Assembly: GCA_016183305.1 (NCBI GenBank)
Contig: JACPEW010000004.1
Coordinates: forward strand, 1-34,287
Origin: Candidatus Daviesbacteria bacterium
GTDB taxonomy: Bacteria > Patescibacteriota > Microgenomatia > Daviesbacterales > UBA10151
Reading direction: 5' to 3'
DNA: 34,287 bases
In this document: one piece after another, positions 6,190 to 34,287 of the stretch
How positions within the stretch are numbered: the stretch's first letter is position 1
How the letters are laid out: every line of letters starts with the position of its first letter
The notes under the pieces: generated by a model
The model's database searches: none
Told to the model about the DNA's origin: nothing
The model's input: only the letters and a program-made list of their open reading frames with translations
Position numbers and translations under genes: made by a program

Positions 6190-7242
6190 TTATGGCTTTA
6201 CCAGCAAACTTTTAGGCTTTTTATTATCCTCATAGCCTAGAGATCCCACTGCGAGCCATTCAACATAAAATGGCACTTTGGCTGTTCTTGACCCAGTTGA
6301 TCCTGAAAAACCTTGATAATTTCCTCCTCCTGTTTTTTGGCTAGGATCAGTAATACCTTCCCAAACACTAGTATGTATAGCATTAATAGTACCTCCGGCA
6401 GCTTGAAAATTTAAGGTAATGGTTTCTCCATTCACAAAATTAGAGCTTTTAGACAAAGTCACAGTAGTCTGCGGACCAGCAGGAAGAGTACCGCAGGTAA
6501 ATTTGGGGCCTGGGTTTTGATCAGTTCTGCCATTAACCTGCACTGTCCAAGCATATTCTTTACCAGGATTTACCTTTAAGCTGTTAACTATGATTTTACC
6601 ACCACTGGCTGTGTTATTAACTGAAATATACCTATCAGCTGGATTGTTGATATCACCGGTCGGATTATTCCAGTCGTCTCCAGGTCCGTCTATTCTGTTT
6701 AATCTCAAAACATAACCTATAGCTCCTGCTGCTATATCCCAAGACAAATTTACTTTAGAATTATCTGAGGAACAAGTATAAGTTAAATTAGTTAGTGGGG
6801 AAGAAGAGCTGGTAGGAACAGCAGTCTCAGCAGGACTGGTAGGCCTTGCTGTAGGAACAGCAGTCTCAGCAGGACTGGTAGGCCTTGCTGTAGGAACAGC
6901 AGTCTCAGCAGGACTGGTAGGAGCCGGGAAAGAACTACCAGAAGCTACTGCAGGACCTAAAGGAGAAGTAATTTGCACAGAAAAACTTTTACTTTTAGTA
7001 AACCATTTACCATCTTTTTGAAAAACATCATCAGATTCTACAAAGGCAATTGGATCACCACTTGCCCTGGATCTAATCATTCTTTGGTTTTTTAACAATT
7101 CCATCCCAATAGGGATAGCCAAAATCAGTATTCCCAAGATAAGGATACTGACTAAGTGTTTTTTATTGGCTAAGCCAAGAACTTGTTCATTCTGAAGCAA
7201 TTCTCTTACTTCGTTTTTAAAAGATTCAAAAAATTCTCCCAT
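6190..7242 (-). CDS. membrane-anchored surface protein with FN3-like domain and Pro/Thr/Ser-rich repeat linker
   Basis: 350 aa; TM helix HLVSILILGILILAIPIGMELL; linker PTSPAETAVPTAR x3; FN3-like SKVNLSWDIAAGAIGYVLRLNRID...GKEYAWTVQVNGR. Confidence 0.8.
   Translation of the reverse strand: MGEFFESFKNEVRELLQNEQVLGLANKKHLVSILILGILILAIPIGMELLKNQRMIRSRASGDPIAFVESDDVFQKDGKWFTKSKSFSVQITSPLGPAVASGSSFPAPTSPAETAVPTARPTSPAETAVPTARPTSPAETAVPTSSSSPLTNLTYTCSSDNSKVNLSWDIAAGAIGYVLRLNRIDGPGDDWNNPTGDINNPADRYISVNNTASGGKIIVNSLKVNPGKEYAWTVQVNGRTDQNPGPKFTCGTLPAGPQTTVTLSKSSNFVNGETITLNFQAAGGTINAIHTSVWEGITDPSQKTGGGNYQGFSGSTGSRTAKVPFYVEWLAVGSLGYEDNKKPKSLLVKP
6812..6921. repeat. 39-bp tandem repeat, about 2.8 copies, in frame (13-aa unit)
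   Basis: gtaggaacagcagtctcagcaggactggtaggccttgct begins at 6812, 6851 and 6890; encodes SPAETAVPTARPT units. Confidence 0.95.
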
Positions 7243-8635: not shown

Positions 8636-8725
8636 AAATTACATTTCAAATATTAAGGATAAAATATTGGGGCAAAAATTGACGGGAAATAACCATAAAT
8701 AAGTAAATAAAATGCTGCCTTAAAA

Positions 8726-8753
8726 TTTTGATTTTTGAATTTTGATTTTTGAA
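8726..8753. repeat. heptameric repeat (TTTTGAW)x4
   Basis: ttttgat ttttgaa ttttgat ttttgaa. Confidence 0.9.
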
Positions 8754-8883
8754 TTTGCCGTTTAGACCACTTCTCCGGTTAATCTCTATCATATATTGTA
8801 CGACATCAAAAATATGGGGAACTCTGAACTGTATCAAAAAAGAGGAGGGATATATAGTGTAGCTTACAGCAAACAGTCTACAG

Positions 8884-10463: not shown

Positions 10464-11206
10464 ATAACCTCAAAATTCGCGTATACTTTTTGCACATCAT
10501 CCAGATCCTCTAATTTACCAGCAAAATCCAACACTTTTTGGGCTGACTGGGAATCAGAAATTGCAATTAAAGTATTGGGTTTAAAGACCATTTCCTGGGA
10601 TTCTACCCTATACCCTGCCTGAGTAACTTTATTGCCCATAGTATTTAATTCTGGGCTTTGTACATATATTAAATACTTCTGCATTCCTTCTTCCTCAAAA
10701 GGTTCAATATCCTCTGCTCCTAGATCAATTAATTCTAAAATTTCTTCCTCACTTTGAACTTTGAACTTTGAACTTTGAACTTTTATTTCTCCAACCCGGT
10801 CAAACATATAAGCTACACTGCCCTGTCCAGCCAATCCTCCACCATTTCTCTCAAAGATATTTTTAACTTCCTGCAAAGTCCTAAGTTTATTATCAGTAAC
10901 TCCTTCTACAATAAAAGCAGTTTTTGCAGGACCAAAACCTTCATACAACACTTCTTCCAAGGTTTGACCGGGCAGCTTACCCAAACCTCTATCAATTGCC
11001 CGCTGGACATTTTCTTTAGGCATATTTACAGTTTTAGCAGCATCTACTGCTACCCTGAGTCTTGGATTAGAATCTGGATCACCAGAACCACCCATTTTTA
11101 CAGCAATAGTGATAACATTAGCAAGCTTGGTAAAAGTTTGGCCACGCTTTATGTCAGCAGTCCCTTTGGCTCTTTTAATTGTCGACCACTTAGAATGCCC
11201 GCTCAT
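10460..11206 (-). CDS. yebC: YebC/PmpR family protein (TACO1 family)
   Basis: MSGHSKWSTIKRAKGTADIKRGQTFTKLANVITIAVK...NPRLRVAVDAAKTVNMPKENVQRAIDRG; ATGA overlap with ruvC. Confidence 0.96.
   Translation of the reverse strand: MSGHSKWSTIKRAKGTADIKRGQTFTKLANVITIAVKMGGSGDPDSNPRLRVAVDAAKTVNMPKENVQRAIDRGLGKLPGQTLEEVLYEGFGPAKTAFIVEGVTDNKLRTLQEVKNIFERNGGGLAGQGSVAYMFDRVGEIKVQSSKFKVQSEEEILELIDLGAEDIEPFEEEGMQKYLIYVQSPELNTMGNKVTQAGYRVESQEMVFKPNTLIAISDSQSAQKVLDFAGKLEDLDDVQKVYANFEVI
10751..10784. repeat. heptameric repeat (ACTTTGA)x4 plus partial, inside the yebC ORF
   Basis: Four exact tandem copies; encodes KVQSSKFKVQS in YebC. Confidence 0.95.
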
Positions 11207-18040: not shown

Positions 18041-18804
18041 TAACTAAGTGCTTTTTTTAAATCTTCTGGCAATCCGCTCTCAAATTCCATCCATTCCCCT
18101 GATTTAGGATGTTTAAAACTAATCTTGGCTGCATGCAAAAATTGCCTAGGACACCACCTTTTATCTAATCTGTATGTTTTACGCCCGGCATACCTCTCAT
18201 CAGCCACTACTGGATTACCAATATATTTTAAATGTACCCTAATTTGATGAGTCCGTCCAGTCTTTGGCTTGCACCTTAAAAAAGTGAACAGGTTATAGTG
18301 AGTGGTGGACAGTTTCTTAAACTGAATTTTATTAAAACCAAAAAAGACTTCCTGTAACCTGTCACCTGTAAACTGTAACCTTTCCAGGGGTTCATACTCA
18401 GTTACTGCTTCCCTGGCCTCCTCACCCTCCATTACTATAAACTTTTCCCTATTCTCTGGATTCCTGGCAATTGCAGCGTCAATTATCCCTCCCTCTGTAA
18501 TAAACCCATGAGCTAAAGCCAAATATTCTTTTCTTACTACCCTCTCCTTAAACTGAGATTGTAAATTCTCCAAAGCATCTTGCGTTTTGGCTGCTAAAAT
18601 CAAACCTGAAGTATCTTTGTCTAACCTATGAACTATTCCGCCTCTTAAAAGTTTAATACCAAAATCCTTTTGCAAAATATCTGCTAAAGTTTTACTCTTT
18701 ACTGTTTCTGCTGGATCTACCACTAAACCAGCAGGTTTGTCTAAAACCAGGAGAGAATCATCTTCATAAATAACACTAATTAGGTTTGTCATTGCAGGTC
18801 CCAA
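18028..18804 (-). CDS. RluA/RluD-family pseudouridine synthase
   Basis: GGIVHRLDKDTSGLILAAKTQDALENLQSQFKERVVRKEYLAL...KTGRTHQIRVHLKYIGNPVVADERY. Confidence 0.95.
   Translation of the reverse strand: MGPAMTNLISVIYEDDSLLVLDKPAGLVVDPAETVKSKTLADILQKDFGIKLLRGGIVHRLDKDTSGLILAAKTQDALENLQSQFKERVVRKEYLALAHGFITEGGIIDAAIARNPENREKFIVMEGEEAREAVTEYEPLERLQFTGDRLQEVFFGFNKIQFKKLSTTHYNLFTFLRCKPKTGRTHQIRVHLKYIGNPVVADERYAGRKTYRLDKRWCPRQFLHAAKISFKHPKSGEWMEFESGLPEDLKKALSYLSS
18352..18379. repeat. heptameric repeat (CTGTMAM)x4 inside the pseudouridine synthase ORF
   Basis: ctgtaac ctgtcac ctgtaaa ctgtaac; encodes LQFTGDRLQ on the minus strand. Confidence 0.9.
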
Positions 18805-27183: not shown

Positions 27184-27211
27184 AAAAGTCAAAAGTTAAA
27201 AGTCAAAAGTA
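27184..27211. repeat. heptameric repeat (AAAAGTN)x4
   Basis: aaaagtc aaaagtt aaaagtc aaaagta; followed at 27249 by (ttttgaa)x2. Confidence 0.9.
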
Positions 27212-27262
27212 TTGTAATTTTGTTCTGCCGGAGGCAGTTTGAAAAACATTTTGAATTTTGAA

Positions 27263-27823
27263 TTACTTAACTCTTTCTATATACTCCCCAGATCTAGTAT
27301 CTACCTTTATCTTTTCTCCATTACCAATAAACATAGGTACTTTTACTACTAATCCATTATCTAGAACTGCTTCTTTAAAAACATTAGAAACAGAGTTACC
27401 TTTTTCACCTGGACCTGTTTCAGCAACTGTATAAGTTAAACTAGCTGGCAACTCTAAACCTAAAGCTTCCTCATCTGAAACTACTAAAGTAACTTCTATA
27501 CCGTCTCTTAGATATTTTGCTTGATCTCCCAGGACTTGGGAGGAAATAGTAAATTGTTCAAAGCTAATTGGATCCATAAAAGAAAAGTTATCTCCATCTT
27601 TGTAGAGAAATTGAGCTTTCTTCTTGCTAACATTAGCCTCATCTACCCTTGCTCCAGTTATAAAGGTTTTTTCTACCACAGAACCAGTCCTGACATTTCT
27701 AACTTTAAGTTTAATAGTCCCACTCCCCCTGCCCATTTTGACATGCTCATAAGTTACAACCTGCAAAATATTATTGCCTTCTTTATAAAAAGTATTATTC
27801 CTAAGTTCTGTGACATTAAGCAT
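27263..27823 (-). CDS. efp: elongation factor P
   Basis: NVTELRNNTFYKEGNNILQVVTYEHVKMGRGSGTIKLKVRNVRTGSVVEKTFITGARVDEANVSKKKAQFLYKDGDNFSFMD...; start at MLNVTEL preferred over 27877. Confidence 0.95.
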   Translation of the reverse strand: MLNVTELRNNTFYKEGNNILQVVTYEHVKMGRGSGTIKLKVRNVRTGSVVEKTFITGARVDEANVSKKKAQFLYKDGDNFSFMDPISFEQFTISSQVLGDQAKYLRDGIEVTLVVSDEEALGLELPASLTYTVAETGPGEKGNSVSNVFKEAVLDNGLVVKVPMFIGNGEKIKVDTRSGEYIERVK

Positions 27824-30431
27824 AAGTTTTAAAGAAATGTAACATATTTTTCCTATCTCTTGCAAGCCACTGGGCATTTGAATAGACTTGTTCTAAAACT
27901 TGAGCTATGGTTCTTTTAGCTTCAGGAGCAGGATTCTTCTTAATAAACCTTTCCAAATCTAGAGCATCAGAAACTTTAGTAAACTCACCTGCTGGAGAGA
28001 AAACCCTAGTAAAATAATGTCCTCCTGCATACCTGTCTTTAAGAAGCTGCCAATGCTTTTTAATAAACTCCCAGGCTAAATACCTGCCATGAGAATTGCC
28101 CCAAACAGAAGCAATAATTTGTAAGCTGTTTTGAAATCTAACATGTTCAGAAATAGCAAAATCCAGGGCTTTTTCAAGTAAATCCCTATCTTTAAACACT
28201 CCTAAGCTTCTGCCTATTCTGTCTCTTTCTTGCTGGTTATCTTCCCCTTTATACATCCTGACTAAAGTATTAAATTCTTTTAATCCTCCATTTTCTGTTA
28301 TCAAGTTATAAACCACTCCTCTTAAATCAGGATCTAATCCTTTGCTACCAAATAATTTTTGGGCTTTTTGAATAGTTTCCTTGTCACCAAAAGAACCAAA
28401 TCTATATAAAACCATGCTTCTAAGTAAAGAATCTGTATGCTTTTCTCCTGGTCTTTTAACCCAACCAACTTTTTTAACAATGTTGTTATAAATTTTCTGA
28501 CCATAATTCCTAAAATCCTGGTAAAAAGGTTCATAAGCTATTAAAGATTCTAGCTTTGCTAAATTAGCAGTAATCTCAGACCAAACTACATAATCTTCTT
28601 CCTGGGTAAACTTGGATGTGAGTTCTAAAGCCAGATGAGTTTGAGTTTCTCCTGCTTCTGCTAAATCAAAAATATCCCTTATTAATCCCAGTCTATCTGG
28701 GGCAGATAATTTACCATCTTTCACAGCCTGCTCTAGGCCTTTAAGATATTCCTCTGGATAACTCACCCTAACCACAGATGTTTCTCCAGCGTTTAACTTA
28801 ATCCACCCATCTTTTGGGACATCAATACTTATTGACTTTTTATCCATTAAGATCTTTGTCATTCTGGGCCCGCTTTGCGGACTGCAGACTTGTCCAGAAT
28901 CCTTACTACTAGATTCTGGTGTCGCTCCGCTCCCCAAAATGACACTAACAGGTATACTCCAGACAGTCTTATCTTTAGACTCCTTCTTAGAAATAGAGCT
29001 GGAAAAAAACCTGGATTGTGTTAACTGTAGTCTGTTGCCCTCCCCGCTTTCAGTGTGGGCCCGCTGCAACCTTACCACTGGATGGCCTGGTTTAGAAGTC
29101 CAGCTTTTCATCACCTTAACAACTGGTTTACCAGAAACTTGTTCTAAAGAATTCCATAAATCTAAAGTTTGCGCATTTGAGTAAGCATATTTTTTTAGAT
29201 AATGTTGCAAACCCTTCCGGAAATCTTTTTCTCCTAAATATGACATCAACATCCTTAAAACTGAGGCTCCTTTAGAATAAGACACCTTATCAAAAATCTC
29301 TGCAATCTCTGCAGGATGACCAACTTCTACCTCAACAGGATGGGTATTTTTTAAAGCATCAAGTTCTAAGGCTTCTTCCAACTCAGTCCCCACAAACTGG
29401 GTCCAAATATCCCACTGGGGGAAAATATGATCTATTGCCAAATATTCTATAAAAGAGGCAAAACCCTCATTCAACCAAAGATGTGTCCACCACTTCATTG
29501 TTACCAAATCCCCAAACCACATATGAGCCAGCTCATGGGCAATTACTAAGGCCACCCATTGTTTATTACCTGTAGATGACCGTTCCTCATCAATAAGGAG
29601 TGTAGATTCCCGGTAAGTAACTGCTCCCCAATTTTCCATTGCTCCAGCAGCAAAATCTGGAATAGCAATCATATCCAGCACAGGGAAAGGTAACTCTATT
29701 CCAAAATAATCCTCATAAAAATTTAGACATTTAACAGCTACATCTAAAGCAAATTTTGCTTGAGCTTTTTTGCCTGGAGTAGTAAAAACTCTAACTTTCC
29801 CATTTTTCCTTTTCTCCTCAATATACTCAAAATCTCCTACAATAAAAGCTAAAAGATAAGTAGACATTTTAGGGGTTGGTGCAAACTCAATAATCTGGTA
29901 ATCACCCTCATGCTCTTTAACTGCTGTTTCAATAGTATTGGAAATAGCTTTTGTTCCTTTAGGAATTATTAAACTCACTTCAAAAATAGCTTTTCTATTG
30001 GGCTCATCAAAACAAGGAAAAGCGCGCCTTGCATCTGTGGATTCAAATTGAGTAGTAGCCAAATGTTTTACTTTTCCCCCTACTTCATACTTGCTTCTAT
30101 AAAAACCTCTCATTTTATCGTTTAAAATGCCTCTAAAAGTTAATTTAAGTTGGCCTTTACCAGCCGCCAGTTTTTTTGGGAAAGTTAAAATGGCTGTTTC
30201 TGCTTTTTTATCATAACTAGTTTTTCCAACCCGGGTTTCCTGGTTTTGATGAATAAATTCAGCTGATTCTATCTCTAGCTCAGCAGCATGAAGGGTAATC
30301 TGTTTAGTAGGTTTTTCTAAAACTAGAGAGATCGTTTCTTCCCCTGTAAAGGTAAACTCATTTAAATCTGGCTTGAGTAAAATTTTATATCTTTCAGGCA
30401 TAACATGAGATGGAAGTCTGACACTTTTCAT
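27816..30431 (-). CDS. pepN: M1-family aminopeptidase
   Basis: GAMENWGAVTYRE, HELAHMWFGDLVTMKWWTHLWLNEGFASFIEY (HEXXH-18-E). Confidence 0.96.
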   Translation of the reverse strand: MKSVRLPSHVMPERYKILLKPDLNEFTFTGEETISLVLEKPTKQITLHAAELEIESAEFIHQNQETRVGKTSYDKKAETAILTFPKKLAAGKGQLKLTFRGILNDKMRGFYRSKYEVGGKVKHLATTQFESTDARRAFPCFDEPNRKAIFEVSLIIPKGTKAISNTIETAVKEHEGDYQIIEFAPTPKMSTYLLAFIVGDFEYIEEKRKNGKVRVFTTPGKKAQAKFALDVAVKCLNFYEDYFGIELPFPVLDMIAIPDFAAGAMENWGAVTYRESTLLIDEERSSTGNKQWVALVIAHELAHMWFGDLVTMKWWTHLWLNEGFASFIEYLAIDHIFPQWDIWTQFVGTELEEALELDALKNTHPVEVEVGHPAEIAEIFDKVSYSKGASVLRMLMSYLGEKDFRKGLQHYLKKYAYSNAQTLDLWNSLEQVSGKPVVKVMKSWTSKPGHPVVRLQRAHTESGEGNRLQLTQSRFFSSSISKKESKDKTVWSIPVSVILGSGATPESSSKDSGQVCSPQSGPRMTKILMDKKSISIDVPKDGWIKLNAGETSVVRVSYPEEYLKGLEQAVKDGKLSAPDRLGLIRDIFDLAEAGETQTHLALELTSKFTQEEDYVVWSEITANLAKLESLIAYEPFYQDFRNYGQKIYNNIVKKVGWVKRPGEKHTDSLLRSMVLYRFGSFGDKETIQKAQKLFGSKGLDPDLRGVVYNLITENGGLKEFNTLVRMYKGEDNQQERDRIGRSLGVFKDRDLLEKALDFAISEHVRFQNSLQIIASVWGNSHGRYLAWEFIKKHWQLLKDRYAGGHYFTRVFSPAGEFTKVSDALDLERFIKKNPAPEAKRTIAQVLEQVYSNAQWLARDRKNMLHFFKTYA
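28855..28945. repeat. REP/MITE-like palindromic element inside the aminopeptidase ORF
   Basis: tttgtcattctgggcccgctttgcgg...gtccagaatcc...agattctggtgtcgctccgctccccaaaatgacact: inverted ends gtcatt/aatgac and inner ccagaatc/gattctgg; encodes SVILGSGATPESSSKDSGQVCSPQSGPRMTK. Confidence 0.8.
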
Positions 30432-33177: not shown

Positions 33178-33612
33178 ATGAAATTCAGCCAAAAACTGAC
33201 TACTAAACAATTTATCTTTTCTCATTTTTTAATTTTTGTTTTAAGCTTAATGTTTTTAGCTGGCCTTTATTATATTATAAATATCCAATACCAAAGACCA
33301 ACTAATCTTTTCTTAAACGGACCAGTTACTACCCCTCCTAAAAGCCTGCGGTTAGATCTTGATCAACCAGATCAAGATAGTTTATCTTACTCATCAACTA
33401 TTATTGTTTCCGGACAAACTGCGCCTTCAAAAGAAGTTCTAATTTCTACTGATAATACTGATTCGGTAATTGAATCTAAGCAAAATGGTTCTTTTTCTAC
33501 CATTGTAGAACTGCAGGAAGGCGTTAACAGGATTACTGCTGTAGTGTTTGATGCAACAGGTGATTCTAGGTCTACCGAAAGAACAGTTTATTACTCAAAG
33601 GAGAAGCTATGA
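33178..33612 (+). CDS. membrane-anchored protein with Ig-like/bacterial adhesin-type domain
   Basis: N-terminal TM FIFSHFLIFVLSLMFLAGLYYI; STIIVSGQTAPSKEVLISTDNTDSVIESKQNGSFSTIVELQEGVNRITAVVFDATGDSRSTERTVYY. Confidence 0.75.
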   Translation: MKFSQKLTTKQFIFSHFLIFVLSLMFLAGLYYIINIQYQRPTNLFLNGPVTTPPKSLRLDLDQPDQDSLSYSSTIIVSGQTAPSKEVLISTDNTDSVIESKQNGSFSTIVELQEGVNRITAVVFDATGDSRSTERTVYYSKEKL

Positions 33613-34287
33613 TAAAAATTCAAAATTCAAAATTCAAAAGTTTTAAAACTTTTAACTTTATACTTGTATTTTTGACTTTTAACTTTTACCTTTTGACTTT
33701 TCCTGTACATGCTGCTGACTCCACTCCATCAGCTGATATTAAATCTAAACTTGAGGAGCTTAAAAAACAGATTGCTTCAAAAGCTGCTAAATTAAAACAG
33801 GAAGTAAACCGTAAGTTAAAAGATAAAGCTTATGTTGGAAAAATTAAATCAAAATCAGATACTTCTTTAACCTTAGCCACTAACTCAGGTCCAAAGATAG
33901 TTAGTTTAAATCAAGATACTATCTGGGAAAGTGAAATTAAATCAAAAACTAAATTCTCAAGTAAAACTATTTCTTTGGAGGATTATGTTGCTACTTTAGG
34001 CGATACTGATGAGACAGGAGTGCTGATTGCAAAAAAAGTCATTTTATTGCCTGCTCCTAAAGCTGAACAAAAAACTTACCAATGGGGTAAAATAATTTCT
34101 ATCTCAGACAAACTTACTACCTTAAAAACTGATGGACTAAAAAATGTAGCAGCAGTTTTACCAGTTAATCCGAAAGCAAAAATAAATGATTTTGTGATAT
34201 TAACAGGCACTAAAGATAACAATGAGATTTTTGAAGCAGAATTTGTTTATATAATACCCCAGGGAGCTGTTTTAAAACCTAAAATAG
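33609..34287 (+). CDS. secreted protein, partial (runs off right edge)
   Basis: MIKIQNSKFKSFKTFNFILVFLTFNFYLLTFPVHAADSTPSADIKSKLEELKKQIASKAAKLKQEVNRKLKDKAYVGKIKSKSDTSLTLATNSG...; ATGA overlap with the upstream ORF. Confidence 0.85.
   Translation, partial: MIKIQNSKFKSFKTFNFILVFLTFNFYLLTFPVHAADSTPSADIKSKLEELKKQIASKAAKLKQEVNRKLKDKAYVGKIKSKSDTSLTLATNSGPKIVSLNQDTIWESEIKSKTKFSSKTISLEDYVATLGDTDETGVLIAKKVILLPAPKAEQKTYQWGKIISISDKLTTLKTDGLKNVAAVLPVNPKAKINDFVILTGTKDNNEIFEAEFVYIIPQGAVLKPKI
33615..33704. repeat. heptameric repeat tract encoding the signal peptide of the 33609 gene
   Basis: (aaaattc)x3 aaaagtt ... ttttgac ttttaac ttttacc ttttgac ttttcct. Confidence 0.9.

Follow-up and report, generated by a model that had tools for sequence, protein, structure and literature searches.

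A gene that runs off the end of a Candidatus Daviesbacteria contig begins with a predicted signal peptide encoded almost entirely by a short element of two inverted heptanucleotide arrays, and we put at roughly 0.6 the probability that this tract is a copy of a dispersed, palindromic, two-armed heptamer element which rewrote a signal peptide already in place. The sequences of this and related genomes document that the element exists, that it is dispersed, that it has two arms, and that in relatives other heptamer families have replaced it at this site. The window referred to below is the whole stretch of DNA analyzed, 34,287 nucleotides in length; gene and signal peptide calls made in scripts are heuristic, and the genomes are drafts that were partly sampled.

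The ATG of the gene, at position 33609, overlaps the stop codon of the upstream gene (ATGA) and follows a Shine-Dalgarno-like AAGGAG (33598–33603, forward strand, position approximate to 1–2 bases), which is kept in congeners when the orthologs are compared by eye. Judged from composition, positions 33609–33713 of the same strand encode a signal peptide, MIKIQNSKFKSFKTFNFILVFLTFNFYLLTFPVHA, with predicted cleavage after A35, and the window protein and its orthologs have the net-positive n-region, hydrophobic core and A-X-A-like site (VHA/A, the slash marking cleavage) of a Sec signal peptide. The initial annotation had proposed this anatomy, which composition bears out, and the translation MIKIQNSKFKSFKTFNFILVFLTFNFYLLTFPVHA/ADS is exact. 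The mature part (33714–34286, forward strand) is conserved in the family, almost every family genome searched having an ortholog, and matches DUF5666 weakly (E 0.028, below the cut-off); it ends at the contig end, and because the open reading frame runs off the contig there, the gene is truncated at 34287.

Within this segment, all on the forward strand, an A-rich left arm (33612–33640) composed of (AAAATTC)x3 and AAAAG encodes the basic n-region; on inspection the three repeated units span 33615–33635 and are followed by AAAAGTT. A spacer, TTTTAAAACTTTTAACTTTATACTTGTAT (33641–33669), whose ACTTGTATTTTTGACTTTTAACTTTT end is common to other copies of the element, leads to a T-rich right arm (33670–33701), which encodes the hydrophobic core and comprises TTTTGAC (33670–33676), TTTTAAC (33677–33683), TTTTACC (33684–33690), TTTTGAC (33691–33697) and a final TTTT. 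Across the tract 33609–33713, the T-rich arm is reverse complementary to the A-rich arm. This heptamer layout had been correctly described at the outset, as had the encoding of TFNFYLL by 21 nt (ACT TTT AAC TTT TAC CTT TTG) and the different products of the two orientations, one half rich in K/Q/N and the other in F/L/T. Exactly where a perfect T-rich array would read an in-frame TAA the stop is avoided, with TTTTACC in place of TTTTAAC. Translation from a downstream start instead of the ATG at 33609 looks unlikely, since the Shine-Dalgarno site and start are conserved in congeneric orthologs and in-frame stops are avoided in the T-rich arm.

Lag-7 self-matches number 59 over the 96 nt from 33609 to 33704, a periodicity above that of all 5000 dinucleotide shuffles (mean 31.0, sd 4.6, maximum 49). 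Across the whole window a lag of 7 yields six tracts, its harmonic 14 four, lags 6 and 15 one each, and the other lags from 3 to 24 none. Elsewhere in the window, heptamer tracts occur in intergenic DNA (AATTTTG/GATTTTT, 8723–8757, forward strand) and inside the gene of an RluA-type pseudouridine synthase (CCTGTAA units, 18351–18381, reverse strand). A perfect 39-bp tandem repeat of 2.8 copies is also present at 6812–6921, where a surface-type protein is rich in proline and threonine.

Period-7 tracts number 22 in 179 kb of this genome (G000), 25 in 240 kb of G007 and 27 in 300 kb of G011, a density of about one per 10 kb; in these samples other non-harmonic periods up to 13 gave 0–3 tracts and shuffled DNA gave none, and in none of the three genomes was any period but 7 enriched. 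Called coding sequences contain 17/22 of the tracts in G000 and 21/25 in G007, per-base tract density is about threefold higher in intergenic DNA (1.16% vs 0.39%), and the heptamer units vary from locus to locus. The stop-free orientation of tracts in called open reading frames is partly circular and was left out as a test, and a reversed-pattern control is not neutral, the reversed unit CAATTTT itself being a heptamer of the same kind. The CTTTTRA heptamer of the window is found in Cyanobacteria, Bacteroidota and Patescibacteria as well, lying inside long open frames in 1/33, 2/23 and 8/14 instances, respectively.

A second two-armed copy of the signal peptide tract family (an AAAAGTC arm and an ATTTTGA arm) lies in intergenic DNA at 27184–27264 (forward strand) and aligns inverted to the signal peptide tract. 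When sampled DNA was searched by BLAST, leaving out the signal peptide locus itself, the tract of G011 matched nine other loci in its own genome vs none and one in the other two genomes, and that of G007 four vs one and none; the tract of G000 matched 11 own-genome loci vs five and three, in a sample biased by having been partly picked by repeat hits. In the congener G001, a single composite element of ~130 bp (an AAAATTC arm, a GCCATGGCGGAC palindrome and a TTTTGAC/TTTTAAC arm) is found at three different signal peptides, where it lies after the start codons of three genes, and at one intergenic site, so that homologous copies at unrelated loci extend beyond the repeat units. Individual signal peptide heptamers differ in their abundance elsewhere: ACGAACT triples are confined to the signal peptide in G009, TTCACCC has one further locus in G010, and ATACCCT has four in G011.

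The inverted relationship of the arms is general. Compared as reverse complements, signal peptide halves match better within species (mean 10.9) than across species (7.3; permutation p < 5e-5, with 0 of 20000 permutations reaching the observed mean), and in direct orientation there is no signal (7.6 within vs 7.2 across species). An inverted partner lies no more than 110 bp away for 27 of the 104 tracts from three genomes, against four expected from swapped partners; many tracts are single-armed.

Comparison of orthologs, which the initial annotation had suggested, finds the tract absent or replaced by other heptamers at the same place. A strong tract (lag-7 score of at least 16 of 21, a level that any other non-harmonic lag reaches in at most two orthologs) is present in 19 of 29 family orthologs and a weaker one in five; the remaining five (G002, G003, G015, G020 and G016) are free of heptamers. 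The mature parts align well among all 29; the signal peptide DNA differs, its heptamers including ATACCCT, ACGAACT, TTCACCC, CTTTACG, TACATTC and ATATCAA. A concatenation of seven segments gave a partly resolved tree, where a tree built from the DUF gene gave no resolution; on the concatenated tree, heptamers change even between sister species (G001 vs G002, G003 vs G007), and at least 12 changes of heptamer class are needed among 16 genomes. By composition, all 29 orthologs begin with basic residues and keep a hydrophobic core and an A-X-A-like site. The initial annotation suggested that a dispersed repeat family had supplied the secretion signal. The coding tract is indeed a member of such a family; secretion of the window gene, on the other hand, was not created by it, as five of the 29 signal-peptide-like orthologs lack heptamers. 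Because all 29 are signal-peptide-like and five of them are heptamer-free, we read the repeat as having rewritten an existing signal peptide, and at the level of sequence a dispersed repeat forms the predicted signal peptide of the window gene in this way. The export signal seems to have been rewritten repeatedly by spreading repeat DNA while still working. In another family (G045, locus L033), the signal peptide region of the ortholog has a period-8 palindromic repeat, ACAAAGAT / CTCTGCTT, in place of period 7.

Real supply of a signal peptide by the repeat may be seen in a T4SS-pilin gene (PF18895), in which a signal peptide is found in six of 16 genomes, exactly the six with a heptamer tract (6/6 vs 0/10; Fisher p 1.2e-4, an association resting on only two to three independent evolutionary pairs). 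This signal peptide is absent from every sampled genome outside the inner clade, which fits its gain within that clade. Paralogs of the T4SS pilin stand in tandem arrays in the family genomes searched (G000:C14 and relatives). In a glycosidase-like gene, G000, G007 and G011 each have a signal peptide of a different heptamer family. Genes with signal peptides are not significantly enriched for heptamer tracts (2/99 vs 8/627 genes without a signal peptide or N-terminal transmembrane segment, p 0.63); a first count of 5/54 had suggested a general preference of the repeats for signal peptides, but its sample was partly chosen by repeat hits, and we discarded the idea in favor of the less biased count.

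Arrays also persist at sites inside conserved genes. Tracts in genes for which another sampled congener has an ortholog give 37 positions; at the orthologous position the lag-7 score is at least 15 in 14 of these (38%), compared with 1.1% for control positions taken from these genes, and the heptamer there is usually a different one. A tract of AAGTTCA units inside yebC (10751–10783, reverse strand) occupies a loop position at which several congeners have different heptamer arrays. Insertion in frame into conserved protein genes is seen in yebC, in an IF-2-like GTPase and in others, and three inserts are of exactly 14 amino acids (42 bp, six heptamers), one of which falls in the putative IF-2-like GTPase domain, named from motifs only, of G011 (L231:10209-10239). 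The gene of an M1-type aminopeptidase (named from sequence; window 27816–30431) has a different, degenerate insert where G007 has a CTGTAAC array (L062:5647-5684). The swapping of heptamers between sister species, at sites in conserved genes that keep their arrays, amounts to an unusual concerted evolution in reduced genomes.

Under the mechanism we favor, the lineage would carry a changing set of element families, mostly inside genes, each element being a palindrome of ~70–130 bp with arms that are arrays of about four heptamers. One such element would have been copied just behind the start codon, A-rich arm first, with the start, the Shine-Dalgarno site and the Ala-X-Ala cleavage site coming from the host gene and together yielding a working signal peptide. 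The A-rich arm would give K/N/Q/S-rich residues and hence the basic n-region, and the reverse-complementary T-rich arm F/L/T/Y-rich residues and hence the hydrophobic core; where an A-rich arm precedes its reverse complement, lysine, asparagine and glutamine codons come before those for phenylalanine and leucine, the order that a signal peptide needs. A heptamer array passes through all three frames in 21 nt, and so only stop-free arrays would survive in genes; we infer that the signal peptide works and that selection keeps only its readable versions. Spread most likely combines growth of the arrays by slippage in 7-nt steps with recopying, through template switching or conversion, from one locus or arm to another; older sites would thereby come to carry whichever families are current in the genome. 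Such a history would show concretely how repeat DNA can give rise to, or rewrite, a functional segment of a protein, both halves of a signal peptide being encoded by a palindrome that has one A-rich arm.

The strongest competitor, though an unlikely one, is that these are ordinary heptanucleotide simple sequence repeats, produced by in-place 7-nt polymerase slippage, with inverted arms arising from local template switching, no copying between loci, and tolerance of the repeats in signal peptides and loops. For most prokaryotes, heptanucleotides are reported to be the commonest repeats of 5–11 nt, and slippage by 7 nt has been hypothesized to account for them (PMC4679880, PMC4692102), and variation of heptamers by locus and the many one-armed tracts agree with such an origin. 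Against it stand the same composite element, with a non-heptamer center, at four unrelated loci of G001 and the far better match of signal peptide tracts to own-genome than to congener loci; slippage of 7 nt can account for arms that lengthen, but not for copies that have a center in common. We count against dispersal that no transposase or other mobility enzyme could be tied to the elements (heptamer tracts are absent beside the five Y1 genes of G000), that no clean target-site duplication was seen in the few occupied/unoccupied site pairs read by eye, that many tracts are single-armed and some signal peptide heptamers rare elsewhere, that signal peptide genes are not significantly enriched, and that the pilin pairs are few.

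A regulatory device at the 5′ end (an mRNA hairpin, an attenuator or a phase-variation switch operating by heptamer gain and loss), with the peptide as by-product, is very doubtful. Since 7 is not a multiple of three, a change in copy number would shift the frame, and the arms are complementary; the RNA, however, folds no better than shuffles (z -0.44), the tract is without a terminator, an Rfam match or a promoter excess, and a signal-peptide-like product is kept in all orthologs despite differing heptamers, with in-frame stops avoided. That the periodicity merely follows from codon use in a hydrophobic F/L/K-rich peptide is hardly credible: the DNA here is rich in A/T and few kinds of residue are encoded, yet a 7-bp period does not keep step with codons, no shuffle attains the observed score, and period 7 also dominates intergenic DNA and genes without signal peptides.

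Heptanucleotide repeats and repeat-derived coding segments are already known, and their combination here looks new; the literature searched, which reached few subscription papers, nowhere describes palindromes of heptamers within the genes of this bacterial group. Long heptanucleotide simple sequence repeats include the cyanobacterial STRR, GGGAATC of Xanthomonas and Nostoc (PMC4692102) and TAACTGA of Beggiatoaceae (PMC4679880), and slippage in steps of 7 nt has been proposed for such repeats in general in work cited there. The tracts described here share with them tandem repetition above chance of units of exactly 7 bp, low copy number, dispersal and taxonomic scatter; those repeats, however, have been described as lying chiefly between genes, each genome having one dominant unit, whereas our tracts lie mostly in genes, vary in unit by locus and often have arms in inverted pairs. 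Rickettsia palindromic elements are likewise short palindromic repeats lying in frame within protein-coding genes at tolerated positions (Ogata et al., 2000, as cited in PMC2759123), but the present elements have no fixed consensus, their arms are heptamer arrays, and their sequence is replaced at the same site between species. The closest precedent in a signal peptide is YPO1552 of Y. pestis, part of whose signal peptide is formed by a dispersed inverted-repeat element where orthologs have unrelated signal peptides (PMC2759123); that is one case with an element of fixed sequence, unlike the recurrence here across several genes and species with different heptamers. Inverted arms and homologous copies at unrelated loci, as in MITE-like or other palindromic dispersed elements, are both found here. 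We tentatively suggest, while holding it to be somewhat less probable than not, a new class of palindromic elements with heptamer arms that invade coding sequence. The sites of these elements would be conserved across species, with the heptamer families current in each genome periodically replacing their sequence. Their repeated domestication as secretion signals would follow from the coding of a purine-rich arm and its reverse complement, which make an n-region and an h-region.

REP/REPIN sequences are short dispersed palindromes associated with RAYT transposases. This genome likewise combines short dispersed palindromes with Y1/RAYT-like genes, but no tag sequence was found, and an origin of the RAYT/REP kind was set aside, as no heptamer tract flanks any of the five Y1 genes. 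These Y1-type transposase genes are located at G000:C24, C2, C9 (two genes) and C1, and four of them are RAYT-like in size.
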